A stretch of 64,000 nucleotides of DNA from Bradyrhizobium septentrionale (lineage in GTDB: Bacteria > Pseudomonadota > Alphaproteobacteria > Rhizobiales > Xanthobacteraceae), in the NCBI RefSeq assembly GCF_011516645.4, contig NZ_CP088285.1, positions 806,001-870,000 of the forward strand. The letters are read 5' to 3'. This document shows positions 22,770-48,797 of the stretch, one piece after another (the first letter of the stretch is position 1; every line of letters starts with the position of its first letter). Below the pieces are notes generated by a model that did not search any database, had not been told where the DNA came from, and was given only the letters and a program-made list of their open reading frames with translations. The position numbers were made by a program, and so were the translations under genes.

Positions 22770-22784
22770 AGCAAGGTTGACCGG

Positions 22785-23884: not shown

Positions 23885-24369
23885 TGGAACTCCGTTGACA
23901 CTTTGTCCTAGACGCGCAATCACACGTCAGACATCCCAGCACAACGTATATCAACGTATATAATTCATATGCCGGCGCGCGAGCAGTCGCGGATGCCGCT
24001 CTCTTTCGCTCGAGCGTGGCGAGGGATGATGCTGCCGCCACTGCCGGCTTGTCTTGCGAAGCGGGCCGCGGCGTGCTCTCGAGGGCGCCATCTGGAACGC
24101 GATCTTCGCGGTGGCATAGGCGATTTGCGAGTGGCCCTTTGACCACTGCATCGCGATCTGGCTTCGCAAGGCGATAAAGACCCGCGCCGAACGGATTGTG
24201 GTCTGATTGTCACCAGTCTTGATACCACCTTCGGGCACCAGGTACCGGGAGCGGCCACGGGCGACTGCGGCCGCTCCAGGAAAGGCTACTGATCGACGTT
24301 CACTCCGCATAGATGATAATTGTGATGAACTGAACGAGCGTCGGCCTCCGTTCGAACGGTATCGGGCGA
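23885..24369. other. No gene recognised
   Basis: About 480 bases between the FkbM gene and the Lrp-type gene. Several overlapping basic frames exist on the minus strand but none resembles a known protein. Confidence 0.45.
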
Positions 24370-24846
24370 TCACCAGCATGCGATCGAAGAAATTGGCAAG
24401 GTAAAGCCTGCCTTGACCCTATCCATAACCACCATGGTTTCGAAGCGCTCTATGTCCGGATTTTCATGAGAGAGGCGGCGGGTAAATTGCTCGTACTCCT
24501 CCAGATTATCTGCGGTAACGAGCAGGACGAAGTGGGCCTGACCGGTGACATAGAATCCGCTCATCACCTCAGTCATTTTGCAGATTGTGCGCTTGAAGCG
24601 ATCAACGATGTCGGCTCGATTCCGGTGAAGTGAGACGAGGACCAGCAGGGTCACGTTTGGTCCGATTGCTTTCGGAGAAATGATTGAGACGTCCGCTTCG
24701 ATTACGCGCAGTGCTCGCAGGCGCTTCAGTCGGCGCTGAACGCCAGAGGCCGACAACCCGACCTTCGCGCCGAGTATTTCACTGCTCAGACGGTTGTTTC
24801 TTTGCAGTAAGTCAAGAAGGCGGGCATCAGTTCTGTCAAGTTTCAT
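24370..24846 (-). CDS. Lrp/AsnC-family transcriptional regulator
   Basis: A 158-residue Lrp/AsnC regulator of standard length. The N-terminal helix-turn-helix reads LDRTDARLLDLLQRNNRLSS, AKVGLSASGVQRRLKRLRAL. The C-terminal RAM effector domain is recognisable by FYVTGQAHFVLLVTADNLEE and the paired strand ending MVVMDRVKAG. Such proteins sense amino acids and bind near their own and neighbouring promoters. No operon partner; target unknown. Confidence 0.9.
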   Translation of the reverse strand: MKLDRTDARLLDLLQRNNRLSSEILGAKVGLSASGVQRRLKRLRALRVIEADVSIISPKAIGPNVTLLVLVSLHRNRADIVDRFKRTICKMTEVMSGFYVTGQAHFVLLVTADNLEEYEQFTRRLSHENPDIERFETMVVMDRVKAGFTLPISSIACW

Positions 24847-33172: not shown

Positions 33173-34812
33173 TAACCCGTCCTATTCGTGAGAGTGCTTT
33201 TTGTAGTCCGCTTGATGTGGCCGCACATCTGCTCTGACAAGGCGCGCGGGATTGCCTTCGGCTTTTCACCGCCTGACGACCCGTACTTTGCAACGCGCTT
33301 GAGGTGTAGGTTGGGCGAACGGGGGGCGGACGCCCCGCCGGTCAAGGACCGAGCGGCAGCAGCGCGCCTGGCAAGCCGCGGATCAGGTCGGCTTCGGGAC
33401 ATGCCGCGGCAAACGCAAGGCGAATGCGGCTCGTGGTCTCGACGACACGGGCGGCGATTTTCAAGAGACGAAGACGCAGCGTCGCGAACTCGGCTGTGGC
33501 CAATTCCCGGGCTTTGGGAATCGCGTCGCGCACGGTCAGCATCAGCCAATAAGCGGCGGTGTGGAGAACGAGGCGGACTTGATTGGCGAGCGCCGAGCGG
33601 CAGCTGGTGCGGTCGGAGGCGAGCTGTGTCTTATGCAGCTTGATCAGATTCTCGGCTTGGCCGCGCGCGCAATACAGGCTGTCGTAGATCCACTCGGCCG
33701 AGCCGACATCGAGGCTGGTGACGACGAAACGGATGTCGAGGCCGAGCATCGTCGCCTCAATACGGGCGACGGTACGCCGTTCGCGATCCCAGGACTTTGC
33801 CTTGTGGCGCGTCTCGGTATAGCCACGCAGAACCGGCAGGTTCTCGATGGCGCGTCGCGTGCGGATGTCGTCGGCGGCCTCGTCGACTTTTCTGGCGAGC
33901 GGCTTGGTGCCGGACAGACCGAAGATGTAGTCGATGCCGTTGGTCTCGCACCACGCCATTGCCTCCGGCCGAGCATAGTGCGCCCGTCGCCACGGAACGT
34001 AATTCGCGTGTTGTGCCACCGCGTCCGGATATGCCGTATCAGGCGGCGCAGATGGGCACGCACCTCGACGCCGCCCGGCGTCTTGCCGGGCCGCAGCACG
34101 ACCGCCACGGGCCGGCTCTTCTCCGTGTCGTAGACGTGGATCGGCAGGAAGCAGCGTTCGTCATAATGAGCGTTGAACAGCGAGAGCTGCTGATGGCCGT
34201 GGACGACATCGCAGGTATCATCGATGTCAAGCGTGACGGATGCCGGCTCGCGCGGGTAGCTATCCATCCATGCGTCGACCAAAGTGTAGGTCAGTCGGAT
34301 CACGTCGCGCAGGCGCGGAGCATTCTCCAGCCGCGACAGCGTCGGTTGGGAACACAGATCGCGACCCGTCTCCGGCAGCCGTCCGCAGGCCAGCTTGAAT
34401 GCGGGATCGGACCGCAGATGATCGAGGTCGTCGGCGTCCTCGTAGCCGCAGCAGATCGCGAACATGCGCGCGCGGAACATATCGACAAGGCTGTGCACGA
34501 CCCGCGTCGGATCGCGCCGATCCGGGAACACCCGGGCCAAATTGTCGGCCAAGCCGAGACGCCGCTCGGCCATCGCCAGAAGCATCACGCCCCCGTTCGA
34601 GGTCAGCCGACCGCCATCGAAGGCAGCTGTGACTTTCTTGGCGTGAACGGCTGGAAACGAGAAGGGCGGAATCGTATCGTCGGTCATGGCGGGCGTGGTG
34701 TTCGCGGCTGAAGGTGATGGGGTTGGCTTTGCAACCGAATCCTACGCCGCATCAGCGCTTTACACCACGCTCGCCAGCCTCTCAGGCGCCCTCTGACGAA
34801 TAAGACGGGCTA
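33173..34812 (-). mobile_element. IS1380-family element, copy 2 (transposase frameshifted)
   Basis: Ends TAACCCGTCCTATTCGTGAG at the left and GACGAATAAGACGGGCTA at the right. Same element as at 12990 and 47161. Its right end is immediately next to an IS5-family element, and its left end truncates the gene after groEL. Confidence 0.9.
33342..34687 (-). pseudogene. IS1380-family transposase, one frameshift
   Basis: Nearly identical to the intact copy at 13160-14503, but a base change in length at about 33982, within the FRGDG region, splits it into two frames (34687 to about 33980, then to 33342). The second frame resumes YARPEAMAWCETNGIDYIFG. Inactive. Confidence 0.9.
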
Positions 34813-34814
34813 AC

Positions 34815-36342
34815 CAGTCGTCGGTTAAGAAGCCGATTTGAGTGGTGTGCGGTGGCTGGTGACTGAGAAGAAGGCAGCCAGGAAGAGGTACCAAAGAGCC
34901 CTTAGCCAGGCGAGGATGCGGCGGAAGTTGTAACCGACGGCGGAGAGGATGACGTTGGCGGCATCGCCGGCGCGGCCTTTGAGGTAGCAGCGGCCGAGGT
35001 GTCCGTCAGCCTTCAAATGGCCGATCACGGGCTCGATAGCGGAGCGGCGCCGCAGCTGGCGCTTGATAGTGCCGAAGACGCCGCGCTTCTGGCCGGAGAT
35101 GAAGACGCGGCGCGGGTTCTGTGCGTCATGGCCGCGGTATCCCTTGTCGACAACGGCGCACTCGATCGCGCAGCCGTTGAGTGTCTCGGTTCGGTCGATG
35201 ACGTCCCGCAGGGTGTGACCGTCGTAAGGGTTATCGGGCAGCGCCTTGGCGTGCAGCACGAACTGGCCGCCGGGAGCAGGCCGGTTGTTGGTGACGATGG
35301 AAGCCTTCACGCCGAACTCGTAAGGCGCGCTGGCCTTGCCCTTGCCGATGCACTCCACCTCGGGGGCATGGAAGGAATACAGCTTCCAGCCGCGCTGGCG
35401 CTGCTGCTGCGAGCGGATCTGCGTGGCCCGGCTCAACGGGAGTGCGAACGCCTCTTCGAGCGCATCCTGGCCTTCGATCTTGCGGCGGATGTCGCGGATG
35501 ATCCGGCCCAGGCGGCTGCGCAGGATGCGCAACTGCCGCTGGTGCCGCTTGAACTGTTTGGCATGGGCGTAGCGTCCCGCCATCATCGCGGTGGCCTTGG
35601 CGATCCGAGAATAGGATTGCCGCAGCCGCACTCCGTGCTTCCTCGCTAGGCGGTTGAGCCCCTGGATCGCCGCATGCAGCAGCTTGGCATCGGTCGGAAA
35701 GGTGATGGCCTTCGGCTGCACCGTGGTGTCGACCGTGACCCGCTCAAGGTCCTTGCCGCGTAACGCGCCGACGTCGTGCGCCACCCGCAGGCTCTCGGCC
35801 AATAGCAGTTCCAGTCTGTCGCCGAGCCGCTTGCGCCAATGGCTCAGGTCCGAGCGCTCGTGCGGGAATGCGTGCTGGAAGAACTCTTCGCCAGTGAAGT
35901 ACTGGAAATACGGGTCGTGGACCCAGCGTTCGCATACCCCCTCATCGGACAGCCCGTAAATGTGCTTGAGCAACAACAGCCCGATCACGAAGCGGGTCTC
36001 AGTCCCCGGCCGGCCGTTCTCGCTGTAGAGCGGCGCGATCTCGCCGTCGATCCAGTCCCAATCGATCTTGCCGGTGAGCCGGACCAGCTCGTGCTTCAGA
36101 TTGATGATCTGGTCGAGCCGCGCCCGGAAAAAATCGTTCGCTCCCGTCGTTTTGTGCTTCTTCGGCCGCATCGTGCCCTCCGATGCGGACAGGGAATCAT
36201 GCTTCGCCCATCGAGGGAATCTCGAAAACGAAATTGCAAGCTTCCGATGCGCAAAACACCAAAACCTTGCAATCTCAGAACGTCATTCCAGCCAAATTAC
36301 GATTCCAGATCAGTCGCCTGGAAGCTTCTTAACGGGCGACTA
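34815..36342 (-). mobile_element. IS5-family insertion sequence, second type
   Basis: Inverted ends CAGTCGTCGGTTAAGAAGC at the left and the complement of TAGTCGCCCGTTAAGAAGC at the right. TAAC occurs on both sides and may be or include the target duplication. It lies between IS1380 copy 2 and the last gene of the hydrazine-type operon, whose stop codon is formed at the junction. Confidence 0.82.
34825..36171 (-). CDS. IS5-family transposase
   Basis: A complete 448-residue DDE transposase starting MRPKKHKTTGANDFFRARLD. An N-terminal DUF772-like domain (GRPGTETRFVIGLLLLKHIY, WVHDPYFQYFTGEEFFQHAF) is followed by the catalytic part: ERVTVDTTVQPKAITFPTDA, CAVVDKGYRGHDAQNPRRVF and RRRSAIEPVIGHLKADGHLG. 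The frame is unbroken so the element may be active. Different from the IS5-type element at 551. Confidence 0.93.
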   Translation of the reverse strand: MRPKKHKTTGANDFFRARLDQIINLKHELVRLTGKIDWDWIDGEIAPLYSENGRPGTETRFVIGLLLLKHIYGLSDEGVCERWVHDPYFQYFTGEEFFQHAFPHERSDLSHWRKRLGDRLELLLAESLRVAHDVGALRGKDLERVTVDTTVQPKAITFPTDAKLLHAAIQGLNRLARKHGVRLRQSYSRIAKATAMMAGRYAHAKQFKRHQRQLRILRSRLGRIIRDIRRKIEGQDALEEAFALPLSRATQIRSQQQRQRGWKLYSFHAPEVECIGKGKASAPYEFGVKASIVTNNRPAPGGQFVLHAKALPDNPYDGHTLRDVIDRTETLNGCAIECAVVDKGYRGHDAQNPRRVFISGQKRGVFGTIKRQLRRRSAIEPVIGHLKADGHLGRCYLKGRAGDAANVILSAVGYNFRRILAWLRALWYLFLAAFFSVTSHRTPLKSAS

Positions 36343-37053
36343 ACCAATATTGCTTTTCCTGAAATGCAGGAAGTTGCAGACGTGAGAATACTGCGCGCCG
36401 CTCAAGCGGAAGCCACAAGCCGCTATGCGGTTCTGAAGAAATAACGGCTCGAAAGCAAATGCTCGGAAGCCGTTGGAGCAGTTCAGGCGGACGTAATCGT
36501 CGGTCCGCTCCACACTTTCAATCCCGATGCCACAAAGATCATAATATTCGCAGCGCGCCAGCGTTGCCGCCTCGTTCGTTGCAAAGAGCGACAAAGCGAG
36601 ATCAAAGGGCGCTTGACACACGCGTGTTAGAAATTCCATTGGCGCATCCATCGTACCTAGAAAATTGAATGGCAGGATGCAGAGTACCTTTCCATCATAT
36701 CGGCTCCTGATTTTACTGATCAGCCGCGTTCTTTTAAAGAATTTATCAGCCTCACAGCGAATAACTGCTCCTTTCCCGCTTTTTAGCCTTCGCGTGCGAG
36801 CCGGGTTTATATCGATCCCAAGGTAATCACTCGCATCGCTCTTGACTCCAATGAGGCGATAGCAGCTGCAACCTACCTCAATGACCAAATCATATCGGGC
36901 TGCGCGCAGCAGATCGGCATAAAAGCGTCGCTCAAGTTCGTGGAACTGACGCACCTTGGCGGTGAAGTAATTCGGGCGCATGAGACGCCCAGCTTCGCCA
37001 TGTAGATAGATCGATCGATTGAATTGCTCGAATTCAGGAGCAGAGGAGTTCAT
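36340..37053 (-). CDS. SAM-dependent methyltransferase-like protein, last gene of the hydrazine-type operon
   Basis: A 237-residue protein with a class I methyltransferase nucleotide fold: DLVIEVGCSCYRLIGVKSD (glycine-poor motif I), YLGIDINPARTRRLKSG (acidic motif II), KVLCILPFNFLGTMDAPMEF (motif IV region). The substrate is unknown; N- or O-methylation of the operon's product is a reasonable guess. The ATG has a GAGG site and lies 12 bases after the alanine racemase stop. Its TAG is made at the edge of the IS5-type element, so the C-terminus may have been altered or shortened by that insertion. Confidence 0.65.
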   Translation of the reverse strand: MNSSAPEFEQFNRSIYLHGEAGRLMRPNYFTAKVRQFHELERRFYADLLRAARYDLVIEVGCSCYRLIGVKSDASDYLGIDINPARTRRLKSGKGAVIRCEADKFFKRTRLISKIRSRYDGKVLCILPFNFLGTMDAPMEFLTRVCQAPFDLALSLFATNEAATLARCEYYDLCGIGIESVERTDDYVRLNCSNGFRAFAFEPLFLQNRIAACGFRLSGAQYSHVCNFLHFRKSNIG

Positions 37054-37065
37054 CGGCGCCTCATG

Positions 37066-38220
37066 TCATTTCGCCGAGACATAGAGCCTACGGCACCGCC
37101 GCCCCATCGCTGTGGTCACCTCATCGCTCAGCATCCTGGCCGCAGATGCTAGATCCGTCACAGTCTGTTCAGGGCAGATCACGTCAACCATTGCGCCCGG
37201 AGTCGTCCAACTCTCAGGCAGATCCGTTACATCAATTGTAATAAGGTCCATCGAAACAAAGCCGACGATAGGCACACGAATACCACATATGAAGACATTC
37301 CCTCGATTGCCAAGACTACGTGGAAAGCCATCCGCATAACCGATAGAGGCGGTAGCAACACGCATCTGCCTGCTCGCTCGGTACGACCTGCAGTATCCGA
37401 TCGTCTCACCAGGCTCTACTTTGCGAGATTGAACGATCTGAGTTCGCAGATGGACGACTTGCGATGGCTTGAAGCAGGGATCATCAGACGTCAAAAAGCC
37501 AAAAATTCCTCCACCTGCTCTTATGAGGTCGAAATGAAACTCGCATCCGGCAAATAGGGCAGCCGAGTTCGACAATGAGAGGATCGCTTCCGGAAACAAC
37601 TGTGTGAGTTCGCGAAACCTTCTCAATTGTTGAAAACTGTCCCCGTTGCGCCATTCTGCACAGGCGAGCTGACTCATGAATAGCGCTACGGGTAATTCCG
37701 ACAGTCCACTGTCGTACTCGGCGATTGCTCGCAATTCATCAACGGCAAAACCCAATCGAGCCAGTCCGGTGTCGACATGGATACCCGCTGGTAGTGCCCG
37801 ATTACGCTGTCGGCAATGCTGAAGCCATGCATCCAATTGTTCCCTGCTGTTGAGGATTGGCAATAGATCATGCTGCTCGGCTGCCAGCTCCATACCTGGC
37901 ATAGCGCCGTGGAGGATGTAGATCTTCGAAGATGATGGTAGCACATCGCGCAGGGCGATCCCCTCCTCCACATCGGCTACGAAAAAGTCCCTACAGCCAA
38001 GTTGAGCAAGGAAGGGCGCTATATGCTTCGCGCCGAGGCCATAGGCGTCCGCTTTGACAACCGCGCCGCATGCGCTATGCGGGGCAAGCGCCTGAACTCT
38101 CCGATAGTTCGATTGGATCGCGCCGAGATCCACAATCATGGTGGATCTCGACATATTGAAATAACCGTTGTCTGCTTCTTGGATAGAAAGCTTCGCTTCG
38201 GTATGAATCGATTCAGGCAT
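37066..38220 (-). CDS. Alanine racemase family protein
   Basis: A 384-residue fold-type III PLP racemase. The cofactor lysine is in GAVVKADAYGLGAKHIAPFL and the partner tyrosine in TASIGYADGFPRSLGNRGNV, both canonical for alanine racemase; the carboxylate-binding and phosphate-cup region appears as GETIGYCRSYRA. The ATG at 38220 (MPESIHTEAKLSIQ) is chosen for its GAGGAAGG site; an upstream start at 38250 is possible. It lies 35 bases after the oxidase gene in the operon. It may supply a D-amino acid, or serve as an extra target enzyme protecting against a hydrazine or similar carbonyl-trapping product; both are inference. Confidence 0.88.
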   Translation of the reverse strand: MPESIHTEAKLSIQEADNGYFNMSRSTMIVDLGAIQSNYRRVQALAPHSACGAVVKADAYGLGAKHIAPFLAQLGCRDFFVADVEEGIALRDVLPSSSKIYILHGAMPGMELAAEQHDLLPILNSREQLDAWLQHCRQRNRALPAGIHVDTGLARLGFAVDELRAIAEYDSGLSELPVALFMSQLACAEWRNGDSFQQLRRFRELTQLFPEAILSLSNSAALFAGCEFHFDLIRAGGGIFGFLTSDDPCFKPSQVVHLRTQIVQSRKVEPGETIGYCRSYRASRQMRVATASIGYADGFPRSLGNRGNVFICGIRVPIVGFVSMDLITIDVTDLPESWTTPGAMVDVICPEQTVTDLASAARMLSDEVTTAMGRRCRRLYVSAK

Positions 38221-38255
38221 ATGCCCTTCCTCGTGTCCCGGCGCTGACATCGCGA

Positions 38256-39320
38256 CTACGGAGAATACAAGGATCGTATTGCTTCTTCCGCACAGGCGGG
38301 CCCAAACCGAAACCCGTTACCTGCGCCGCCACCAATGACCTGAAGCCCGGCGATGGCTCGAGCTGGACGCGCGAACGGGACGGCATCGTCCGAATAGCAG
38401 TCGCAGAACACCCGTACTGACGCAATCGCCGGCACGTCCACGGAGAACCATTTCGCCAATATTGCTGTTGCGCGCGCCAAATCGTCTGAACTGACATGCA
38501 ACGCGTCGCTGTCGGGCCTGACATCCCATTCCTGCGAGGTAAAGCTGAACAACCAATAGCCGTCCGCGATCATGGGAATGAGGAAAGCGTAGTCATCCAA
38601 CAGGCCGATCATCGGACAGTTCGAGGAGGGACGCGCTGCGAGATGAAGGGCGACGACCTTTTTAACCCGCAACCGCGGTTCGTCTGCCAGGTGCTCGCGT
38701 AATGGTGATTCTGGAAGCCATGGACCAATTGCCAGGATAGCTCGCCGCGCCGAGATTTCGCTATCGTCCGAGGTCCGAAGAAGAAGATTACGTGGGCCCT
38801 GCCTTATCCTTTCAATAGACGTTTGCTCGAATATCGAAATACCGAGGGCCCTGAGCCGTTCGGCCAAATCCTGGACAATTAAATCGACCGGGCTATACGA
38901 GCCCCGATCGAGCGCTACAGCTATATCGTCGGCAATCTGAAAATTTGGCAGCGAGGAAAGCCTCTCGGTCAGCTCGACCGACGTTGAGGGGGTAGTGCCG
39001 CCCATGCCAGCCAGTCGCGCGAGTTCGTCCGGATTGCGGGTCAGCCAGAACACGTCACAGTCTCGGCCATTGTGCCAGCCACCACGGGGATAGATCCCAC
39101 GCCAGAATTTCGAACCGCGATCAATGAGGCTCCTTTCCCCATCATTCCGACAAATGTTGATTTGGATTCCGGGAGCAAACCCGCTGGCACCTGCTCCAAC
39201 GATATCTCGTTCGAAGATAACGATCCTTTGCTTCGGATCATTGCGCGCCGCGATGAAGGCGGCACTAAGACCCATGACGCCCGCGCCGATAACCGCCAGG
39301 TCATAAATCCCGCCGGTCAT
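38256..39320 (-). CDS. FAD-dependent amine/amino-acid oxidase (DAO family)
   Basis: A 354-residue DAO-family flavoprotein (glycine oxidase, D-amino acid oxidase, sarcosine oxidase type) that oxidises C-N bonds. The dinucleotide motif is DLAVIGAGVMGLSAAFIAAR, with the ribose-binding Glu in IVIFERDIVGAGASG. The C-terminal FAD closure is LQVIGGGAGNGFRFGPACAE. The start ATG overlaps the cupin stop (ATGA), so translation is coupled. In hydrazine pathways a flavin oxidase that cleaves the N-N-linked amino-acid adduct to a hydrazino acid is usual, and this is the likely role here (inference). Confidence 0.82.
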   Translation of the reverse strand: MTGGIYDLAVIGAGVMGLSAAFIAARNDPKQRIVIFERDIVGAGASGFAPGIQINICRNDGERSLIDRGSKFWRGIYPRGGWHNGRDCDVFWLTRNPDELARLAGMGGTTPSTSVELTERLSSLPNFQIADDIAVALDRGSYSPVDLIVQDLAERLRALGISIFEQTSIERIRQGPRNLLLRTSDDSEISARRAILAIGPWLPESPLREHLADEPRLRVKKVVALHLAARPSSNCPMIGLLDDYAFLIPMIADGYWLFSFTSQEWDVRPDSDALHVSSDDLARATAILAKWFSVDVPAIASVRVFCDCYSDDAVPFARPARAIAGLQVIGGGAGNGFRFGPACAEEAIRSLYSP

Positions 39321-39661
39321 CGGGTTTCCCTCCAGGAGATAGACAGGGCGCTCAGAGCTTCGCAGCCGCTATTTTCCAGGTGATGAGTTCGATCAGGTCG
39401 CAGAAACACAAGGTCTCCTGCTTTCACAGCCAACTCACCATCATTGGTCACCACCCGACCGCTGCCGCCGGTAATGCGCCAGATCTCGCTGGACGGATGG
39501 GAATGCGGCGTCGACACCGCGAACGGATCAAGCCGGAATTCGATGAGTTCGACGGGACAACAAGTCGTCTGTTGATTGCCTATGCCTTTGACCTCCTGCA
39601 GCACGACGCCGGGGCTATAAGCGGTGATGTCGCCTAACGTAATCAGCTCTGCATCTTTCAT
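39317..39661 (-). CDS. Stand-alone cupin, candidate half of a split hydrazine synthetase
   Basis: A 114-residue single-domain cupin. Metal ligands of cupin motif 1 are visible in STPHSHPSSEIWRITGGSGR (HxH and E) and the motif 2 histidine in DLVFLRPDRTHHLENSG. Length is just one double-stranded beta-helix. In described hydrazine synthetases a cupin domain of this sort is fused to a MetRS-like domain and catalyses the rearrangement that makes the N-N bond from an O-aminoacyl hydroxylamine. Here it is a separate gene, coupled to the oxidase (ATGA overlap), in an operon with the MetRS-like and N-hydroxylase genes. A GGGGTATACT sequence precedes the ATG. Confidence 0.85.
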   Translation of the reverse strand: MKDAELITLGDITAYSPGVVLQEVKGIGNQQTTCCPVELIEFRLDPFAVSTPHSHPSSEIWRITGGSGRVVTNDGELAVKAGDLVFLRPDRTHHLENSGCEALSALSISWRETR

Positions 39662-39716
39662 AGTATACCCCGATTAAGGAAAGGCTGGTTCAAGGCTGCT
39701 GGCAACTGTTCGTCCC

Positions 39717-41051
39717 TTAACTGGGATCGTCCAAGCATGTGCTGCTCCACTTGACGGCGCCAGTTTCCTCGCCGCATTCGTAGGCTACGCGGCCGATGAT
39801 CGAATTGAGGATTATTGAAGCGCGCCAGGGTACCAAGCTGAGGTTGGTATCAGCGATACCATGTTGAAGGCGCGCGCCGTTCTGCACATACAAACGGCAT
39901 GTCTCGGGACCATCGAAATGAGCCGAAAAGTCCTTCTTGACGACGATTTCCCGAGAGCCACCGGGGGCACTCGCGACCGTCAGTCGGCCCGCGATCGGAT
40001 CTAGGAACGAAGGGATCTCGGTCCGATAACCCGTGGCTAAGATGATAATGTCGGCGGCATGTTCAGAACAAATGCCTGTCGTCTGCTGACGCAAACCCAC
40101 GCGAAAGGGGGACGCGCCTTGCAACTCGTCGGCTGTGGTGTCGACGCATATTTCGACCTGAGCGGGGTATGTTCCTCGGCGAAGCTCTCGATCGTAGAGG
40201 GCGTCGTAGATGGCGCGGAGCGTCACGCAGTTCACCCCGTCGCTGGCCAATGCTTGCCGCGCCAGAATTCTTTTGCGCGCCGATTCGCTCTGCTCGAAGA
40301 ACCACCCACCATACCGCGGAAAGAACCATTCGTTCACGAACGGGCTATTTTCGAGCGCAAAGATATTCGCGCGGCGCGTCACCCAGGTCAGGGCTCTGAG
40401 CGCGCCGCAACCACCACGCAGGAGATGAAGGAATACCTCCGCCCCGCTCTGGCCGCCACCCACCACCATAACACGCTTGCTCGACAGCTCGCGCCGTCGC
40501 AGCAGAAGGGCACTCCCGTGGAACACCTCGTCTGGCGGTGCATTCCTGCTCCAATCAGGAATAGATGGAACGCGACCCACACCTACCACAGCTGTACAGG
40601 TTTGGTATTTGCGGTGAGTGGTTATGACGTCAAAGGAGCTGCCTCGCAGCTCGAGTGCGACGACACGTTCGCCAAACCGAACGTTCGCCAGCTTTTTTGC
40701 TGCCCATCGCAAATAGTCTTCAAATTCAGCACGGCTGACGTGGTCAAGTCCACGGACGATGGCTTGATAAAGCCGTCCTTGATCATGCAAGTAGGCGATG
40801 AAGCTGTAGGCACTGGTTGGATCCGCCGGCGTAACAAGGTCCTTTAGCGGGCTGGTTTGCATAAGGGCACCTCCTAGAAGCAGTCCGGGATGCCACTCAA
40901 CCGAGTCCGATCTTTCCAGGATGTGCACAGAAATTTCCGAAACCGGGACCGCGAGCGCCGCCAGACTTAGATTTGCAGGCCCAGCACCGATCGCGACTAC
41001 GTCGCGGCCAACGCCGTCCTTGATCATCCCATGATCCCTGAGGGGCGCCAC
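39717..41051 (-). CDS. Lysine/ornithine N-monooxygenase family protein
   Basis: A 444-residue FAD/NADPH-dependent N-hydroxylating monooxygenase of the IucD/PvdA/SidA family, which turns the side-chain amine of lysine or ornithine into a hydroxylamine. FAD motif VVAIGAGPANLSLAALAV, substrate/flavin region WHPGLLLGGALMQTSPLKDL, VTPADPTSAYSFIAYLHDQG, NADPH motif VMVVGGGQSGAEVFLHLLRG and the family ATGY motif (IIILATGYRTEIPSFL) are all present. It begins at a GTG immediately after the MFS stop, or at the ATG at 41027 with an AGGGA site. There are no siderophore ligase genes nearby, so a role in N-N bond formation fits the context better. Confidence 0.9.
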   Translation of the reverse strand: MAPLRDHGMIKDGVGRDVVAIGAGPANLSLAALAVPVSEISVHILERSDSVEWHPGLLLGGALMQTSPLKDLVTPADPTSAYSFIAYLHDQGRLYQAIVRGLDHVSRAEFEDYLRWAAKKLANVRFGERVVALELRGSSFDVITTHRKYQTCTAVVGVGRVPSIPDWSRNAPPDEVFHGSALLLRRRELSSKRVMVVGGGQSGAEVFLHLLRGGCGALRALTWVTRRANIFALENSPFVNEWFFPRYGGWFFEQSESARKRILARQALASDGVNCVTLRAIYDALYDRELRRGTYPAQVEICVDTTADELQGASPFRVGLRQQTTGICSEHAADIIILATGYRTEIPSFLDPIAGRLTVASAPGGSREIVVKKDFSAHFDGPETCRLYVQNGARLQHGIADTNLSLVPWRASIILNSIIGRVAYECGEETGAVKWSSTCLDDPS

Positions 41052-42269
41052 TCAATGCCTCCCGCCGCTCACGAATACTTGAATTGTAAGAAGAGCGCCA
41101 TTGGCGCCGACCAGCAACATCATGCTCATCAATAGATAATCGAAACTGCCGACCCCTATGATTTGCCCAGCGATGTACGGAAATCCAAATAGGCCAATGA
41201 AGTAGGAGAGAGTGAACACCTGAGACGCAACGGCCAACGATGACCCATCAATAGCGGCAATGTGAACGACCATGCTGTTCAAAGTCGAATAGCTGAGACC
41301 GTATCCGAGCGCAAACATCATCGTCCCGAGAATGTAGATTGCTGGACTACCTACGTTCATCAACAGGACGAATAGCCCCGCAATAGTGCAAAGGATCAGA
41401 AATGCAGCTACGCGTTCAAGCCGCCAGAGCCCAATGATCGGTGCCACCGCAAAACGCGAGAAGACCGCTGTCAGCGTGAAGACCAGAAAGAACGTATCCG
41501 CAGACTGTGCTCGCGATGTCGCGTAGAGCGTTTGGAACGTGGACAGACCGGCGAAAACGCAGGCTGCGATGCCGATCATGATGACTGGATAGCGCGTGTT
41601 CGCCTTGAAGGTTCGCACCAGACTTCCAAAGGTCAGCCGCACAGCCGGCATTTCGATCTGTGGAGCTTGCGCCAGGACCCTGCCTGCGGACTCCAAGAGC
41701 GCCGCGCCCGCAAGACAGGCAGCTGCAAATAGGCAGTAAACTGCAATGTAGGATCCAGCGGCTTCCGCGAGCGCACGTGCGAGGGGCGCCGCAAGCCCGA
41801 TGCCAAGCATTTGAGATGCGGAAAGCAACGTAAGATACTTGATACGAGCCTCAGCTCGCACGTGGCAGAAGATTTGAAGCGGCGCTAGTATATAAAAGAC
41901 CGACCATCCAATGCCCAGCAGAAGTCCACCGATGTAAGCTATCAGCGTCGCAAGCGATGCTGATGCGAAACATACCATGGCCAGGGCCATGATCGCTGCA
42001 GCGAGTGTGATCGTTCGCATCACGCCGAGCACGTCGGCAATCCGGCCGGCCAAGAGCGAGCACAATATTGTTGCGATCGTACCGATCGAAACAACGGCTC
42101 CGGCGGTCGTGTCGTTTTGTCGAACGGCGGTTAACGCGTCCACAAGAACGAAACTCGAGCCGTAGCAAGCGGCCAAGCTGATACTGCCAAACATGAAGGG
42201 GATTGAGACCTGCAACGCGATTGCATTGGGCAAGTCCTCAGCAGGAACGATATGCTTGGCCGGTGTCAT
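41052..42269 (-). CDS. MFS transporter of the hydrazine-type operon
   Basis: A 405-residue major facilitator with about twelve membrane helices; the loop 2-3 motif is LLAGRIADVLGVMRTITLAA. Its ATG overlaps the stop of the MetRS-like gene (ATGA) and its stop abuts the N-monooxygenase start, so it is in the middle of the operon. Likely exporter of the product or an intermediate. It is not closely similar in sequence to the exporter at 20374. Confidence 0.86.
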   Translation of the reverse strand: MTPAKHIVPAEDLPNAIALQVSIPFMFGSISLAACYGSSFVLVDALTAVRQNDTTAGAVVSIGTIATILCSLLAGRIADVLGVMRTITLAAAIMALAMVCFASASLATLIAYIGGLLLGIGWSVFYILAPLQIFCHVRAEARIKYLTLLSASQMLGIGLAAPLARALAEAAGSYIAVYCLFAAACLAGAALLESAGRVLAQAPQIEMPAVRLTFGSLVRTFKANTRYPVIMIGIAACVFAGLSTFQTLYATSRAQSADTFFLVFTLTAVFSRFAVAPIIGLWRLERVAAFLILCTIAGLFVLLMNVGSPAIYILGTMMFALGYGLSYSTLNSMVVHIAAIDGSSLAVASQVFTLSYFIGLFGFPYIAGQIIGVGSFDYLLMSMMLLVGANGALLTIQVFVSGGRH

Positions 42270-43927
42270 GCTGCGCTCTTTCCGGGCAGGCACCAATCAA
42301 TGTCTTTAGCCGCTAACCTGCGCCCATCGATCTTCGGTACTGATCCGTTTCGCGCAGATGATGGCCTTGACGCGCATCCGGCAAGCGGATGTCCGCTATG
42401 CCCCAGCCAGCGCCATAACGCTTCGGTGATCTTCGGCATCAGCGGCCAACCCAGTACGCTAAAGCCCATCAGCCAAGTGTAAGCGGTCTCATGGCTCGTC
42501 GCCGCATTCACACAGTCGACCCATTCGATGACTGGCTTTGACGCTTGTGATACCAGCAGATGATCCAGCGAAAGTGCCGCGCACTGCTTCTCGTAGAGCC
42601 TGTCGAGCGCGGTCATCATCGCGCCATCTACGTAGCAGCAGGTTGGAGCCGGTGCTGCGTTTACGATGCCTGTGCAGCGGTCGATAGCTGCAGACATCTG
42701 ATCGAAAAGTACGTTGTAACGATCGACCAGCTGCTCTGATATCAAATCGGCCTCGGCCTCCTCCGGACAAATTTCCGACAGGTACACTCTAAGAACATCG
42801 ATTGATACATTTGGAGTTCGAGCGATCTCGCCCGCCCAGATCACGTGACCTCGGCTGGTGGAGAACTTCGATCCGTTCAATCGCAAAAAGTAGTTGAAGA
42901 AGATACGATCGAACGGCCGAAACGAGTCCTGGCCCAGCGCGCACCCTGTAGTACCCACGAGCATCGGAATTGTGTTATCGACACCGGTAGCACTAATGAG
43001 GAACGCATCGGAGTCGAGAACAAAAGGACTAGGCCTGCCGCTGCTTTCTGTGTCTCTCTGGCCGCAATAGAGAGAATGAGCGTAGAGTAGCGAGGAGTAG
43101 CTGAACAATATTTGCCGGGTCTTGAAATGCGGCGAACTCCAACCCAACCCGTGCAATCCCGGCACGGTCAGCCGCATCTGCTGTCCTTTGCGCGCGACAT
43201 ACCGCTTCGCTATGTCCCGAAAACTTGGCTCTATAGCCGTGTCGTCCCACGCCCGTAGAAGCCGGTCTTTTTCCGAAATTGAAAGGAAGGCGGAAATGTC
43301 ATCCGCCCATTGCACGATCCGCCCTCGCCTTGATATCGGATCCCGCGCCTCTTCGGGCTCGAAATGATATCCACATTGCTCGCAGAAGAAGCTGCCGGCA
43401 GAAGCCGCACAAACCGGACAGGTCGCACCAAACCAGCCCCCAATGCAAAAACGTTGTTCTGGCCGCGTGACAGCTGAGGGCGTATCGTCAATTGGTAAAC
43501 GCATTGTGCGGAATTGCAGACTTCCGGCTGCAAACAATGCCCCCATGAGCGCGCCACTCACATTCGAGAAGCGCTGCAGATTTCGGCCATGCGCAGGATC
43601 ATCGAAATGGTCGAAAACAATGCCTAGCGAGGCGAGATCCTCAACGATCTTGACGTGGAAGCCATGCGCGAGTTCCGATGGATCAGTGTTCTCGCGAGCC
43701 GCCCGGACCAAAACATGATTCTCGAAGCCGTCGGTGGTCAGCCCAGAGCGAACTCGATGCCCCGCCCTCTTCAGGTGCCTCTGCACGACATCCATCCGAA
43801 GATAAGGCCCAGCGGCGTGCCCCAGATGTGCCCTGCCATTGGCAGTCAAATTCACTGGGGAGACATACACATCGATCGGATGCGTGTTTGCTGCATTTAT
43901 CCGCGCGATAGTTGGGCTTTTCTTCAT
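42266..43927 (-). CDS. MetRS-like amino-acid-activating protein, candidate half of a split hydrazine synthetase
   Basis: About 553 residues with the class I aminoacyl-tRNA synthetase catalytic fold of MetRS. The HIGH motif is HLGHAAGPYLRMDVVQRHLK, a zinc-knuckle insertion is present (CPVCAASAGSFFCEQCGYHF), and the KMSKS motif is altered to GSKFSTSRGHVIW. A helical anticodon-domain-like tail follows, with WLMGFSVLGWPLMPKITEAL. The usual MetRS TGTDEHG segment is changed to LTTDGFENH. In hydrazine synthetases a MetRS-like domain activates an amino acid and loads it on a hydroxylamine rather than on tRNA. First gene of the operon. The ATG at 43927 (MKKSPTIARINAANTHPIDV) is chosen; the frame opens upstream to a TTG at 43996. 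Confidence 0.87.
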   Translation of the reverse strand: MKKSPTIARINAANTHPIDVYVSPVNLTANGRAHLGHAAGPYLRMDVVQRHLKRAGHRVRSGLTTDGFENHVLVRAARENTDPSELAHGFHVKIVEDLASLGIVFDHFDDPAHGRNLQRFSNVSGALMGALFAAGSLQFRTMRLPIDDTPSAVTRPEQRFCIGGWFGATCPVCAASAGSFFCEQCGYHFEPEEARDPISRRGRIVQWADDISAFLSISEKDRLLRAWDDTAIEPSFRDIAKRYVARKGQQMRLTVPGLHGLGWSSPHFKTRQILFSYSSLLYAHSLYCGQRDTESSGRPSPFVLDSDAFLISATGVDNTIPMLVGTTGCALGQDSFRPFDRIFFNYFLRLNGSKFSTSRGHVIWAGEIARTPNVSIDVLRVYLSEICPEEAEADLISEQLVDRYNVLFDQMSAAIDRCTGIVNAAPAPTCCYVDGAMMTALDRLYEKQCAALSLDHLLVSQASKPVIEWVDCVNAATSHETAYTWLMGFSVLGWPLMPKITEALWRWLGHSGHPLAGCASRPSSARNGSVPKIDGRRLAAKDIDWCLPGKSAA

Positions 43928-44231
43928 GTCGGCACAAATGACTTCCGTGGATACATCGCCGCCAGCATGCCAGGTGCGCTGACATCTCTCCGGCAATGGC
44001 GATCGCGATAGCTCGACGCAGATACGGATACAGGCCGATTGGTTGCTTCAAGGCGGATTCTACAATCAGTCAAAGGTGACTTGCCGCATCCGGTCTGAGC
44101 TCTTCGATAGGACGACTTCGCCGCCTCCATTGTTCGCGCGGCTTCGGCTTCCGACATAGTTGAACTCCCCCCGGCTCGACTCGATGAGCCAACGACATGC
44201 CCGCAAGCGGCCGCTGACCAAGCCGTAAACA

Positions 44232-44247
44232 AGCAAGCAGCGGGCCA
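44232..44247 (-). promoter_or_regulatory. Sigma-54 promoter candidate upstream of the hydrazine-type operon
   Basis: On the minus strand TGGCCCGCTGCTTGCT matches TGGCNNG-N4-TTGCW with GG and GC ten bases apart. It points at the MetRS-like gene, about 305 bases upstream of its chosen ATG (236 from the TTG). No other minus-strand gene intervenes that I can support. Confidence 0.62.
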
Positions 44248-44288
44248 ACTGCGACTGCTGATTTTTCTCCTTGTCTGAACCTGCGTAC

Positions 44289-44304
44289 CGTCAACTTTCG
44301 AACA
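44289..44304 (-). promoter_or_regulatory. Near-match to a NifA site
   Basis: On the minus strand TGT-TCGAAAGTTG-ACG differs from TGT-N10-ACA in the final base. It sits about 42 bases upstream of the -24 element at 44247, closer than usual. Weak support only. Confidence 0.3.
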
Positions 44305-44988
44305 TTGGTCGCGAAGCCGACGACCGGCTCAGTAGAGCGAAGTGAGAGTTTGTTTGCCGTACTGACCGAGGCGCGTGGGAGCTGTTCCCAGATAGCTTCA
44401 GGTATGCGGGGCCGCCTCCTCTTCGTTATGACCCCAGCCAACGTCGGCCGCGAATGCTCCAAGCTGATTCAGCTGATCAGCAACGAAAACTGGATGCTCG
44501 GCTAGGACGCTTGAACAAGGAGACCAAGGGGGCGCTTTCGAAATCCCATTGTCGTGGAACGAGATCACAGATCTGGCGCTCGGAACGCTTCATCTGGTTT
44601 GGCCACCGGGAGGACGGCCCCCCGCTCAATGGCAGTTTGCCTGTCGGTGGAGTAGGCGCCAACTCATTCGAGACAGCAGCGATTGCAAAAGCGCCTTCTT
44701 GACGTCCTCGCAGTTGGCATTTGCCAACGGAGCTGGCGTTCGCTCAAGAACAAACTTCAATTCCGGATGCGCGATGTATCCATTGTGCCAAGTGCGGGTC
44801 GAATTCGGTGAGCTTGAAGGCTTCACCAGATTAGATGACGTTCATGCCATATTGCGGCGGGTCGGCAGGGGTAAAGAATAAGCCTTGCACCAGCAGGCCG
44901 AGCGTCGGGCCAAACGCCGCAGGTCCCACACCGAACAATAGGAACAGCGTCGGGCCAGAATGAAGTGCACCTCAGACACTCCAACCGG
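44305..44988. other. No gene recognised
   Basis: About 680 bases with overlapping short frames on both strands and no recognisable protein. The right end runs into the decayed M16 peptidase gene. Confidence 0.45.
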
Positions 44989-45698
44989 AGTGCGGAGGCC
45001 AATGAGATCCGCCCGCTGGTCGAGACGAATTTGGCGGCATCTCTGCGCAGCCATCGATCCCAGAGGAACGCCTGCGGCCGCAGGAACCGACGCCGGCCGC
45101 GCCGCGGACCGTGACGCTGGCCGATCCCCGCGTCGAGCAGTCAGCCTTGCACCGCTATTATCTCGTGCCCTCCGCTCGCACCGCGGCCGCCGGCGAGAGT
45201 CCAGTGCTTGAAGTGCTCGAGCAATTGATTGGAGGTGGCGTCAACTCATATCTCTATCGCGCGCTGGTAATCGACAAGCAGCTTACGATCGGTGCCACGG
45301 CGAGCTACCAGCCTACCGCGCTCGATTCCTCGCGGTTCGTGATTTCTGCCATACCAAACCCCTGCGTGAAGTTCGGCCAGATTGAGCGCGCCATCGACGA
45401 GGTGATCGCCAACATTGCGCACAATCCCGCGCGCATCGAGGATATCGAGCGGGTCAAGACGCGGCTGATCGCGCGAGCAATCTACGCTCAGGACAATCAG
45501 GAAGCGCTCGCGAACCGGTATGGCCGCGGGCTCAGCACGGGCCTGTGCATCGACGATATTCGAGGCTGGTCGGACGGCATCCGCGCCGTCGGTGCCCAGC
45601 AGGTGCGCGAGGCCGCGCGGAAATGGCTCGACAAAAGACGCTCGGTGACCGGCTATCTCATCAAAGAGCCAACGCCAAACCACGAGGAGAAGCGATAG
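44989..45698 (+). pseudogene. M16 peptidase, N-terminus lost and frameshifted
   Basis: Only the second half of an M16 zinc peptidase remains. A short piece (ANEIRPLVE at about 44999) leads, after a frame change near 45025, into FGGISAQPSIPEERLRPQEP, TVTLADPRVEQSALHRYYLV and on through VLEVLEQLIGGGVNSYLYRA to VTGYLIKEPTPNHEEKR. The zinc motif HxxEH, which belongs in the missing N-terminal half, is absent. The TAG overlaps the GTG of the next M16 gene, the usual arrangement of paired M16 subunits. Confidence 0.75.
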
Positions 45699-47001
45699 TG
45701 ACCTGTTTTTGCACACGGCGGGGGGTCCTCCTCGGCGGCGCGTCGCTCTCAATCGCGATGCTCGCCTCGCTAAATTCGCTTGCCACCACCAGGACGCTTG
45801 CCGCGACCAAGATCAAGCGCCTGGTCTCGTCTTGTGGTATCGAAGCCTGGTTCTTGCAAGACCCCACTGTCCCGTTGATTGCGATGGAATATGCCTTCGG
45901 CGGTGGCGCGACCCAGGACCCAAGCGGCAAGCCCGGCGTCGGCAACATGGTTGCTGGCTTGCTCGATGAAGGCTCCGGCGATCTCGGCTTTAAGACCTTT
46001 CATGAACGGCTCGACCGTCGAGCCATTAAGCTGAGCTTGGAGCGACCCACGATCACTTCCGCGGTGCCCTGCGCACGCTCGAGGACCACAGGGACGAGGC
46101 CTTCGACCTTTTACGGATGGCGCTAACCTCGCCCCGTTTCGACGCGGCCGACGTCGAGCGGATCCGTGCCGGCGTGCTCTGTCGCCTTCGGCATCAATCG
46201 ACCGATCCTTCATCGCTCGCCAATCGCAAGTTACTCGAAGTCGCCTTTGGCGATCATCCTTATGCTCGCCCGGCTGCAGGCTCGATCGAAAGCGTGTCGA
46301 AGATCGAGGTCCCGGATCTCAAGCGCGATGTCCGACACGTGATGGCAAAAGACACGCTCAAGATCGCGGTGGTCGGCAATGTCGATCCAGAGGTTCTCTG
46401 TATACTACTCGACAAGACCTTTGGAGGCCTTCCCGCCAGGGCGGAGTTGGCGTCGGTCCCCGACGTGGTCGCGGCAAGACCACCGCAGCGCGTCAATATT
46501 CCGTTCGATGTGCCACAGACAGTTGTGAGTTTCGGCGGTCCAGCGGTCCGCCGCAGCGAGCCCGATTTCATGGCCGCCTATATTGTCAACCACATCCTCG
46601 GCGATGCCGGTCTGACGTCGCGGTTGTTCCGCGAAGTCCGAGAGAAGCGCGGGCTGGCCTATTTCGTCCGTGAGCACCTCGTCTGGATGGATCGTTCGGC
46701 CATGTTTGTCGGCAATAGCGGGACCAGCGCCGATCGCGCCCGTGAGACTGTCGAAGAAATCGAGAAGCAAGTCCGCCACATCGCCGAGCAAGGCCCGACC
46801 CAGCAGGAACTCGACAATGCAAAGTCCTACCTGAAGGGCTCGCAGATGCTGGCCCTCAACACATCATCAAAGCTGGCGCAAACGCTGTTGCAGTATCAGC
46901 TTGACAAGCTGCCGATCGACTATTTCGAAAAGCATGAAGCCGTCGTCGATGCGGTCACGTTGGAGGATGCCAAGAGAGTCGCGCAGCGGCTGTGGGGCTA
47001 A
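45698..47001 (+). pseudogene. Second M16 peptidase-like gene, one frameshift
   Basis: GTG start with a Tat-like signal (RRGVLLGGASLSIAMLASLN), so the partner was exported to the periplasm. The first frame goes LVSSCGIEAWFLQDPTVPLI, MEYAFGGGATQDPSGKPGVG, then breaks near 46047. The correct continuation is in another frame: HFRGALRTLEDHRDEAFDLL, MALTSPRFDAADVERIRAGV, FGGPAVRRSEPDFMAAYIVN, GLTSRLFREVREKRGLAYFV, to the stop at 47001. In paired M16 enzymes this member normally lacks the zinc site. A single base change would restore about 434 codons. Confidence 0.8.
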
Positions 47002-47160: not shown

Positions 47161-48797
47161 TAGCCCGTCTTATTCGTCAGAGGGCGCCTGAGAGGCTGGC
47201 GAGCGTGGTGTAAAGCGCTGATGCGGCGTAGGATTCGGTTGCAAAGCCAACCCCATCACACTCAGCCGCGAACACCACGCCCGCCATGACCGACGATACG
47301 ATTCTGCCCTTCTCGTTTCCAGCCGTTCACGCCAGGAAAGTCACAGCTGCCTTCGATGGCGGTCGGCTGACCTCGAACGGGGGCGTGATGCTTCTGGCGA
47401 TGGCCGAGCGGCGTCTCGGCTTGGCCGACAATTTGGCCCGGGTGTTCCCGGATCGGCGCGATCCGACGCGGGTCGTGCACAGCCTTGTCGATATGTTCCG
47501 CGCGCGCATGTTCGCGATCTGCTGCGGCTACGAGGACGCCGACGACCTCCGATCATCTGCGGTCCGATCCCGCATTCAAGCTGGCCTGCGGACGGCTGCC
47601 GGACACGGGTCGCGATCTGTGTTCCCAACCGACGCTGTCGCGGCTGGAGAATGCTCCGCGCCTGCGCGACGTGATCCGACTGACCTACACTTTGGTCGAC
47701 GCATGGATGGATAGCTACCCGCGCGAGCCGGCATCCGTCACGCTTGACATCGATGATACCAGCGATGTCGTCCACGGCCATCAGCAGCTCTCGCTGTTCA
47801 ACGCTCATTATGACGAACGCTGCTTCCTGCCGATCCACGTCTACGACACGGAGAAGAGCCGGCCCGTGGCGGTCGTGCTGCGGCCCGGCAAGACGCCGGG
47901 CGGCGTCGAGGTGCGTGCCCATCTGCGCCGCCTGATACGGCATATCCGGACGCGGTGGCACAACACGCGAATTACGTTCCGTGGCGACGGGCGCTATGCT
48001 CGGCCGGAGGCAATGGCGTGGTGCGAGACCAACGGCATCGACTACATCTTCGGTCTGTCCGGCACCAAGCCGCTCGCCAGAAAAGTCGACGAGGCCGCCG
48101 ACGACATCCGCACGCGACGCGCCATCGAGAACCTGCCGGTTCTGCGTGGCTATACCGAGACGCGCCACAAGGCAAAGTCCTGGGATCGCGAACGACGACC
48201 GTCGCCCGTATTGAGGCGACGATGCTCGGCCTCGACATCCGTTTCGTCGTCACCAGCCTCGATGTCGGCTCGGCCGAGTGGATCTACGACAGCCTGTATT
48301 GCGCGCGCGGCCAAGCCGAGAATCTGATCAAGCTGCATAAGACACAGCTCGCCTCCGACCGCACCAGCTGCCGTTCGGCGCTCGCCAATCAAGTCCGCCT
48401 CGTTCTCCACACCGCCGCTTATTGGCTGATGCTGACCGTGCGCGACGCGATTCCCAAAGCCCGGGAATTGGCCACAGCCGAGTTCGCGACGCTGCGTCTT
48501 CGGCTCTTGAAACTCGCTGCCCGTGTCGTTGAGACCACGAGCCGCATTCGCCTTGCGTTTGCCGCGGCATGTCCCGAAGCCGACCTGATCCGCGGCTTGC
48601 CAGGCGCGCTGCTGCCGCTCGGTCCTTGACCGGCGGGGCGTCCGCCCCCCGTTCGCCCAACCTACACCTCAAGCGCGTTGCAAAGTACCGGTCGTCAGGC
48701 GGTGAAAAGCCGAAGGCAATCCCGCGCGCCTCGTCAGAGCAGATGTGCGGCCACATCAAGCGGACTAAAAAAGCACTCTCACGAATAGGACGGGTTA
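47161..48797 (+). mobile_element. IS1380-family element, copy 3 (transposase frameshifted)
   Basis: Ends TAGCCCGTCTTATTCGTCAG at the left and CGAATAGGACGGGTTA at the right. Same element as at 12990 and 33173 but in plus orientation. Confidence 0.9.
47286..48629 (+). pseudogene. IS1380-family transposase, two frameshifts
   Basis: Begins MTDDTILPFSFPAVHARKVT as in copy 1, shifts frame at about 47549 within YEDADDL, and shifts again near 48198 within DRERRTVARIEAT, ending in LRGLPGALLPLGP-type sequence at 48629. Two length changes mean this copy is dead. Confidence 0.9.

Follow-up and report, generated by a model that had tools for sequence, protein, structure and literature searches.

Hydrazine synthetases pair a cupin with a partner resembling methionyl-tRNA synthetase (MetRS), and both split and fused forms have been described. 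In Rhodococcus jostii RHA1 the two halves are separate proteins: according to excerpts of PMC8664883, RHS1 (PDB 5UQP) is a stand-alone cupin that forms the N–N bond from the ester made by its MetRS-like partner, its zinc is held by Asp63, His65, Glu69 and His103 (each Ala variant is inactive), the associated monooxygenase is termed an N6-lysine hydroxylase, and the synthetase uses glutamate. Spb38/Spb39/Spb40 of the s56-p1 pathway and Apy9–11 of the actinopyridazinone pathway bring together an N-monooxygenase, a DAO-family oxidase and a didomain synthetase, with the oxidases Spb39 and Apy10 cleaving the conjugate in two directions, and the cupin and MetRS-like pair Afn8/Afn9 of albofungin has been proposed as a further stand-alone set (PMC11705231, excerpts). 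The amino acids used by hydrazine synthetases in these accounts, Gly, Ala, Ser, Glu and Tyr, are all primary amines (excerpts of PMC11705231 and PMC8664883). Here we describe, in a 64,000-nucleotide stretch of Bradyrhizobium septentrionale DNA (the whole analysed stretch, hereafter the window), an operon of seven minus-strand open reading frames (ORFs; 36340–43927) near nodulation genes. It probably makes and exports a small N–N-bonded molecule by the steps proposed below, under predicted sigma54 control with sites close to those of NifA.

In order of transcription the operon encodes a MetRS-like protein, a major facilitator superfamily (MFS) transporter, an N-monooxygenase, a cupin, a DAO-family oxidase, an alanine-racemase-family protein and a 237-aa protein. 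Pfam matched tRNA-synt_1g, MFS_1, Lys_Orn_oxgnase, Cupin_2, DAO and Ala_racemase_N/C among them, and the 237-aa protein had no Pfam or NCBIfam match at E 0.01. A sequence-only reading had placed seven minus-strand genes here, with ATGA overlaps at two junctions, and we found all seven ORFs and both overlaps (42269–42266 and 39320–39317); of the extent it gave, 36340–43996, the operon itself stands and the upper end shifts. The MetRS-like ORF opens at 43996, and conservation among relatives starts at the ATG of codon 24, 23 codons downstream, so the gene most likely spans 42266–43927. The features are as follows, with S-adenosylmethionine abbreviated SAM, azetidine-2-carboxylic acid AZE, pyridoxal 5'-phosphate PLP and upstream activating sequence UAS:

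36340..37053, minus strand: AZE-synthase-like SAM enzyme (AzeJ/VioH relative), 237 aa
37066..38250, minus strand: alanine-racemase-family PLP enzyme, extra copy (Pfam; invariant K66 and Y305; second racemase in the genome)
38256..39320, minus strand: DAO-family flavin oxidase (Pfam DAO, 4.2e-30)
39317..39661, minus strand: stand-alone zinc-type cupin, putative N–N-forming half of the synthetase (best PDB match 5UQP, 2.4e-7; metal-site residues)
39717..41051, minus strand: lysine/ornithine-type N-monooxygenase (Lys_Orn_oxgnase, 7.3e-92; K70 and N240)
41052..42296, minus strand: MFS transporter, likely exporter (Pfam MFS_1; the ATG at 42269, in the ATGA overlap, is an alternative start)
42266..43927, minus strand: MetRS-like protein, 553 aa, putative amino-acid-activating half of the synthetase (tRNA-synt_1g; tree; His after KFSTSRx; start from orthologs)
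44232..44248, minus strand: sigma54-type -24/-12 promoter TTGGCCCGCTGCTTGCT (strict form in 13/16 loci)
44289..44304, minus strand: NifA-UAS-like site TGT-N10-ACG, 56 nt upstream of the promoter (9/15 promoter-bearing loci)
44307..44322, minus strand: second conserved upstream block, CGT-N10-ACC (TGT-N10-ACC in relatives)

The identification of the cupin and the MetRS-like protein as a split hydrazine synthetase is well supported by sequence comparison. The cupin's top PDB match is RHS1, with other cupins behind at about 1e-4, a result that contradicts any grouping with unrelated cupins. The HxH...E...H ligands noted in the sequence-only reading are H53, H55, E59 and H92; they align with RHS1 D63, H65, E69 and H103, are invariant in 15/15 sequences and include the essential Glu, and His in place of Asp63 is also the state of PyrN (PMC8664883, excerpts). 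The columns of H55, E59 and H92 are kept in 12/12 other cupins compared (3 of 15 other loci gave no cupin match).

The MetRS-like protein carries HLGH and KFSTS, as the same reading had seen, and thus has the class I synthetase motifs in a protein that is not the housekeeping enzyme: a separate MetRS, 26% identical, is encoded elsewhere in the genome. A tree of 44 rows set 22 presumed housekeeping MetRS (the genome's own included) apart from 22 MetRS-like rows with support of 100/97; it sampled 6 of 15 Bradyrhizobium relatives and, at phylum level, 21 of 27 loci, 6 having dropped out because tblastn found no local match at E 1e-3. Branches in this tree are long, and the MetRS-like row closest to the MetRS side is L063. 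A His after KFSTSRx was found in 7/7 Bradyrhizobium rows, in 14/15 other MetRS-like rows (not B. arboris) and in 0/4 MetRS rows. Among MetRS-like rows KFSTSRx itself has K for R in two and I for F in one, and the full motif KFSTSRxHxxW varies, the discriminating position being the His alone. Residues around the methionine pocket, in columns that we assign on the presumed model of E. coli MetRS, also differ from MetRS. Together with the separate MetRS and the tree, these differences make it unlikely that the protein charges tRNA. The window protein's clade (support 100/100) also includes Robbsia, B. arboris and G550, a relative at order level, and in 3/3 other lineages the nearest MetRS-like relatives have N-monooxygenase and cupin genes in their vicinity, about 5 kb away in G550. 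More widely, 8 of 397 order-level genomes (own included) match the protein at E 1e-9, only G550 in its clade, and 49 of 398 phylum-level genomes match it, those inspected having in most cases the length and motifs of an ordinary MetRS. The Robbsia clade member is annotated 'methionine--tRNA ligase', and the window protein scores under the cut-off of the like-named NCBIfam model (NF008863); such names are probably wrong for this clade.

An N-hydroxylase gene stands beside the cupin/MetRS-like pair. By overall PDB score the N-monooxygenase is nearest to 6XBB and the putrescine hydroxylase 7US3; we take 6XBB and 5O8P to act on cadaverine, 5O8P being listed as a lysine enzyme. It has LKDLV and SPFVNEW, as in the ornithine enzyme 3S5W and MbtG, and the Lys and Asn of these motifs, missing from 6XBB, 7US3 and 5O8P as aligned, are K70 and N240 here, invariant in 15/15. 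They thus match the Lys and Asn that serve the amino-acid end of the substrate in SidA (Lys107 and Asn293): SidA Lys107 contacts the carboxylate of the substrate, and hydroxylation is abolished when this Lys is replaced by Ala (PMC7347517, excerpt), and N240 would be the counterpart of Asn293, the aligned enzymes being others than SidA itself. In a comparison with 14 neighbours, the RHA1 lysine hydroxylase is 40% identical to the window enzyme and has the same K and N. The N-monooxygenases of R. rhizogenes, M. loti and G550, to our knowledge uncharacterised, are 41–42% identical, and that of Robbsia, which diaminobutyrate genes adjoin, has neither residue. We considered a diamine N-hydroxylase, as suggested by the top PDB scores and by an NCBIfam histamine model that matches below its cut-off, and rejected it in view of the amino-acid-type substrate residues. 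These residues and the likeness to the RHA1 enzyme therefore make an alpha-amino acid, most likely lysine, the expected substrate. On a Robbsia andropogonis plasmid (L041, 4565–10820), a MetRS-like gene of the window's clade lies beside a diaminobutyrate aminotransferase gene and an N-monooxygenase gene with diamine-type residues; this set perhaps makes a diamine-based hydrazine.

The DAO-family oxidase shares 26–30% identity with proteins of its family encoded in 4 of 15 other N-monooxygenase/MetRS-like loci, and its AlphaFold2 model has a pLDDT of 43.4. Against TIGR00492 the alanine-racemase-family protein scores 215.5 bits (cut-off 168); its K66 and Y305, which on the pattern of known Alr enzymes we take to be the PLP lysine and the catalytic tyrosine, are invariant in 15/15, and another racemase elsewhere in the genome is 39% identical to the operon copy. 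The family of the MFS protein suggests that it exports the product. The RHS1 match, the tree and the N-monooxygenase residues thus support, at the level of sequence, the earlier proposal of a split hydrazine synthetase with an N-hydroxylase and a DAO-family oxidase.

The last gene, described earlier as methyltransferase-like, keeps that fold class; its closest kin are the AZE synthases AzeJ and VioH, with which it shares fold and sequence (20–24% identity in structural alignment). F129, Y170, R167 and Y171 occupy the positions of AzeJ Phe134, Tyr175, Arg172 and Tyr176 and are invariant in 15/15, and the AzeJ Met28 position is also matched (PMC11794875). The GxxxG adenine motif and the carboxylate ligands Asn139 and Ser203 are missing, and we therefore class the protein as AZE-synthase-like, not as a member. 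AzeJ/VioH also differ in setting, as there is no nonribosomal peptide synthetase (NRPS) among the window's seven genes. Searches for AzeJ-like relatives gave none in 72,556 plasmids (two queries), matched no genome but the own one in a class-wide set of 385, and showed no such gene in the examined stretches of Robbsia, B. arboris and G550. Genes like azeJ beside class I tRNA ligases have been reported (PMC11794875).

Within the genus, the MetRS-like protein is present in 16 of 265 genomes, the 15 others being 73–80% identical; the matches that carry species names (8/8 Bradyrhizobium, including B. pachyrhizi, B. embrapense, B. viridifuturi and B. tropiciagri) are a subset of these loci, not independent of them. 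All seven genes occur in unchanged order in 14 of the 15 other loci, L039 ending at a contig edge, and the proteins are near full length in relatives, with the N-monooxygenase of L033 as the exception. Median dN/dS (nonsynonymous over synonymous change) against the window is 0.14–0.21 for each of the seven genes, indicating purifying selection, although the values are only rough because synonymous sites are well filled (mean proportion of synonymous differences, pS, 0.51–0.59). The full, ordered set in 14 of 15 loci and these ratios argue that the association is not chance. The genome holds nodC and nifH, which agrees with the plant-symbiont setting claimed earlier. Across the genus nodC was found in 135 of 265 genomes and nifH in 159, all 16 carriers have both, and nodC lies 37–95 kb from the operon in 16/16; the naive P for nodC in 16/16 carriers is 1.3e-5, a figure that ignores strain kinship. 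A minority of strains carry the operon, as an accessory of their nodulation region.

The conserved ATG is preceded by a TTGGCGCGCCGCTTGCT-type site in which the GG and GC typical of a sigma54 promoter are correctly spaced; neither this promoter nor the AZE-synthase kinship of the last gene was part of the sequence-only reading. The site is present in strict form in 13 of 16 loci and in strict or loose form in 15 of 16, at 282–333 nt from the ATG in 14 loci and 144 nt in L035. The window promoter, at 44248–44232, is one of 3 such sites in the 64 kb on both strands, and its TGGCCCG-CTGC-TTGCT departs from the consensus TGGCACG-N4-TTGCW once (C for A). Shuffled upstream regions contained such a site in 0.33% of cases, a figure that is too kind because the pattern was loosened after the alignment had been seen. 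Farther upstream, TGT-N10-ACC stands 73–75 nt from the promoter in 14/14 promoter-bearing relatives, where the window has CGT, and TGT-N10-ACG stands 55–57 nt from it in 9 of 15 promoter-bearing loci, the window included.

Between the sigma54 site and the operon there is a small reading frame (43924–44157) with similar peptides in L026 (45 codons), L027 and L039; in other loci the ORF after the sigma54 site looks, by eye, short or shifted. Its likeness to Nif11-type leaders was seen by eye only, and three readings of it had no Pfam match at E up to 10. A leader riboswitch or known RNA was rejected, as Rfam gave 0 matches in 43500–45000 at E up to 1. Elsewhere in the window, a full-consensus sigma54 promoter TGGCACGGTCGTTGCA (22514–23003 region) lies 271 nt upstream of a 72-aa ORF (22785–23003), near genes for an FkbM-type methyltransferase (23222–23923) and an Lrp-type regulator (24370–24846).

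Compared with the described systems, the operon is similar in its core and different in its surroundings. RHA1 has the split genes, the cupin metal site with Glu and the N-monooxygenase K and N in common with the window (PMC8664883, excerpts), whereas the MetRS-like proteins of the two fall in different, deeply separated clades; tblastn of a 15-kb unannotated RHA1 stretch matched the N-monooxygenase, cupin and MetRS-like protein, with no match to the DAO-family oxidase, racemase or MFS protein and no AzeJ-like gene found. The Spb and Apy sets, compared by description only (PMC11705231, excerpts), share with the window the grouping of monooxygenase, oxidase and synthetase, but their synthetases are didomain, whereas the window has split halves together with a racemase and an AzeJ-like gene. 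Two points that the sequence-only reading had offered as new are thus already on record: separate cupin and MetRS-like genes, in the RHS1 pair (PMC8664883) and the Afn8/Afn9 proposal (PMC11705231), and rhizobial occurrence, as Q8KGM6 of Mesorhizobium japonicum R7A is listed among identified hydrazine synthetases (excerpts of PMC11705231). Q8KGM6 is probably the neighbour of msi280 of R7A (M. loti R7A in PMC3538637), the gene of an 'L-lysine 6-monooxygenase' whose lacZ fusion in nodules gave 371.6 Miller units, against 268.9 in the absence of nifA1 and 7.3 in the absence of nifA2 (PMC3538637, excerpts).

A set of this kind on a plasmid of Mesorhizobium sp. 131-3-5 (L046, 3469–8641) provides a precedent. 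It holds N-monooxygenase, phytanoyl-CoA-dioxygenase-type and fused cupin-MetRS genes near fdxB and acdS, its promoter CTGGCACGTTCGATGCA is identical to the -24/-12 string printed for msi280 (PMC3538637, excerpts), and a full TGT-N10-ACA lies 57 nt upstream of that promoter. It thus shares with the window a rhizobial N-monooxygenase and hydrazine-synthetase set, with a NifA/sigma54 promoter where the window has a sigma54-type one. It differs in a fused cupin-MetRS of another clade and in its other neighbours, with no match to the window's DAO-family oxidase, racemase or MFS protein and no AzeJ-like gene; the likeness rests on L046, not on R7A. Our literature search found no paper on the product of the L046 set. 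Further rhizobial sets were seen in M. amorphae (L043), Sinorhizobium meliloti pSmeSM11b (L044) and R. rhizogenes (L045), and among them are a saccharopine-dehydrogenase-type gene as for pyrazomycin, NRPS genes on a conjugative plasmid, and an N-monooxygenase with a DAO-family oxidase and a fused synthetase.

From these comparisons we infer the chemical steps, their substrates and order, and expression in nodules. The flavin N-monooxygenase would convert L-lysine to N6-hydroxylysine, the MetRS-like protein would adenylate a second amino acid with ATP and transfer it to the hydroxylamine oxygen, and the free zinc cupin would rearrange the resulting unstable ester to form the N–N bond. The DAO-family oxidase would then cleave the conjugate to a hydrazino acid, which the MFS protein would export; this acid is possibly built on AZE, as the AzeJ/VioH-like enzyme may supply AZE, or another product of the SAM aminocarboxypropyl group, as a building block. 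The racemase may set a stereocentre or, because hydrazines trap PLP, may serve as a protective spare PLP enzyme. The sigma54 promoter and near-NifA sites would turn the operon on in nitrogen-fixing cells. Carried to a specific product, this scheme would have the MetRS-like protein activate AZE, the cupin join its ring nitrogen to N6-hydroxylysine and the oxidase release 1-aminoazetidine-2-carboxylic acid, exported in nodules under nitrogen-fixation control, with the extra racemase for a stereocentre or self-protection; we put this version forward tentatively and regard it as unlikely in full.

Several observations weigh against these proposals. In the last protein, AzeJ Asn139 is replaced by Thr and Ser203 by Ala in 15/15, the second Gly of GxxxG is Tyr in 14 of the 15 sequences and Cys in the remaining one, and Glu stands for Asp85 in 5 of 15; VioH too has Ala for Ser203, yet it retains Asn139 and GxxxG. 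The window's MetRS-like clade is without a member that can be linked to a characterised enzyme and sits on a long branch, and KFSTS and GxDN also occur in the genome's own housekeeping MetRS and hence do not discriminate. The N-monooxygenase frame of L033 is broken near its start (near 8738–8932), with no usual start codon before about residue 57, which may be a sequencing fault, the assembly being in many contigs. As to regulation, L032 is without a sigma54-type promoter, the -24 box has C or G at the consensus A, and the upstream sites end in ACG or ACC, close to the NifA site TGT-N10-ACA without being one. The gene nifH is distant from the operon: in 6 carriers 317 kb to 3.9 Mb separate the two, 9 carriers have nifH on a different contig, and for 1 its position is unlisted. 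Finally, a mutant with an insertion in msi280 received a '+' score for symbiotic effectiveness (PMC3538637, excerpts), and fixation may therefore not require such a product.

The AZE-specific points bear on a version of the N–N pathway in which the last protein is an ordinary methyltransferase, the second amino acid a common one (alanine, glycine or serine) that the racemase would supply or invert in the case of alanine, and the product a methylated, exported alpha-hydrazino acid. The primary-amine substrates of published hydrazine synthetases fit this version (PMC11705231; PMC8664883, excerpts), as do the loss of Asn139 and GxxxG and the want of an AzeJ-like gene in the examined Robbsia, B. 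arboris and G550 stretches. We consider this version, which comes near to the sequence-only reading, rather unlikely.

Other readings dispense with the N–N bond. N-monooxygenases of the Lys_Orn_oxgnase family serve siderophores, and the MetRS-like protein could acylate the hydroxylamine to a stable N-acyl-N-hydroxy product exported as a metal chelator. There is a precedent in PyrN, which without a working cupin yields an N-acyl hydroxylamine shunt product (PMC8664883, excerpts). Such a hydroxamate pathway would, however, make the cupin pointless, although its Glu is invariant in 15/15, and no hydroxamate acyltransferase, NRPS or NRPS-independent siderophore (NIS) synthetase was recognised among the seven genes; we rejected this improbable reading on the strength of the invariant cupin. 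Alternatively, the MetRS-like protein might be a spare or drug-resistant MetRS travelling with unrelated genes, in keeping with its best NCBIfam model, methionine--tRNA ligase, with the annotation of its Robbsia relative and with 17 of 18 PDB matches named methionyl-tRNA synthetase or ligase. Its score against that model (352 bits) falls below the cut-off (551), however, and the separate MetRS, the tree split and the changed pocket residues, for example Thr at the position that we presume to be Y15 of E. coli MetRS, all speak against it; furthermore, N-monooxygenase and cupin genes are its constant partners in fully examined loci. We therefore rejected a spare MetRS as scarcely credible, and return to the N–N-forming operon as the preferred account.

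A defence-system reading was dropped, as the seven operon proteins gave 0 PADLOC matches at E 1e-5. Around the operon, transposase-like ORFs at 13160–14503, 33644–34687 and 47286–47714 have near-identical beginnings (MTDDTI.PFSFPAVHA...) as judged by eye, and the latter two flank it on opposite sides. A Peptidase_M16_C domain lies at 46117–47001, with further M16-like sequence, by eye, in overlapping ORFs of other frames (45111–47001), and this region has the appearance of a decayed gene. At 16500–21621 a GMC/DAO-type oxidoreductase, a class III aminotransferase and an MFS transporter occur in a run, possibly another small-molecule pathway.

Already known are the hydrazine-synthetase family, the existence of split members, the occurrence of one of the family in a rhizobium and the NifA2 dependence of msi280. 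New, as far as our literature search shows, would be the seven-gene set, a MetRS-like clade without a member linkable to a characterised enzyme, the combination with genes for an AZE-synthase-like protein and a racemase, and a sigma54-type promoter in a Bradyrhizobium nodulation region; the open-licence literature, searched for the rhizobial link, the AZE link and the enzyme family, gave no paper tied to the operon. The AZE-synthase-like gene predicts a type of compound that the available parts of PMC11705231 do not name as a hydrazine-synthetase product, and the operon offers another reason for class I tRNA ligases to stand beside other azeJ-like genes. If the AZE version is true, it would be, as far as we know, the first N–N bond to a secondary ring amine made by the hydrazine-synthetase family, and 1-aminoazetidine-2-carboxylic acid, a strained cyclic hydrazino acid, would be a nodule metabolite of a new class. 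Rhizobial symbiosis regions hold two differently built hydrazine-synthetase loci: that of Mesorhizobium has the promoter string whose R7A copy depends on NifA2 in nodules, and that of Bradyrhizobium a sigma54-type promoter. Whether nodule bacteria make N–N compounds, and for whom, can now be tested directly.

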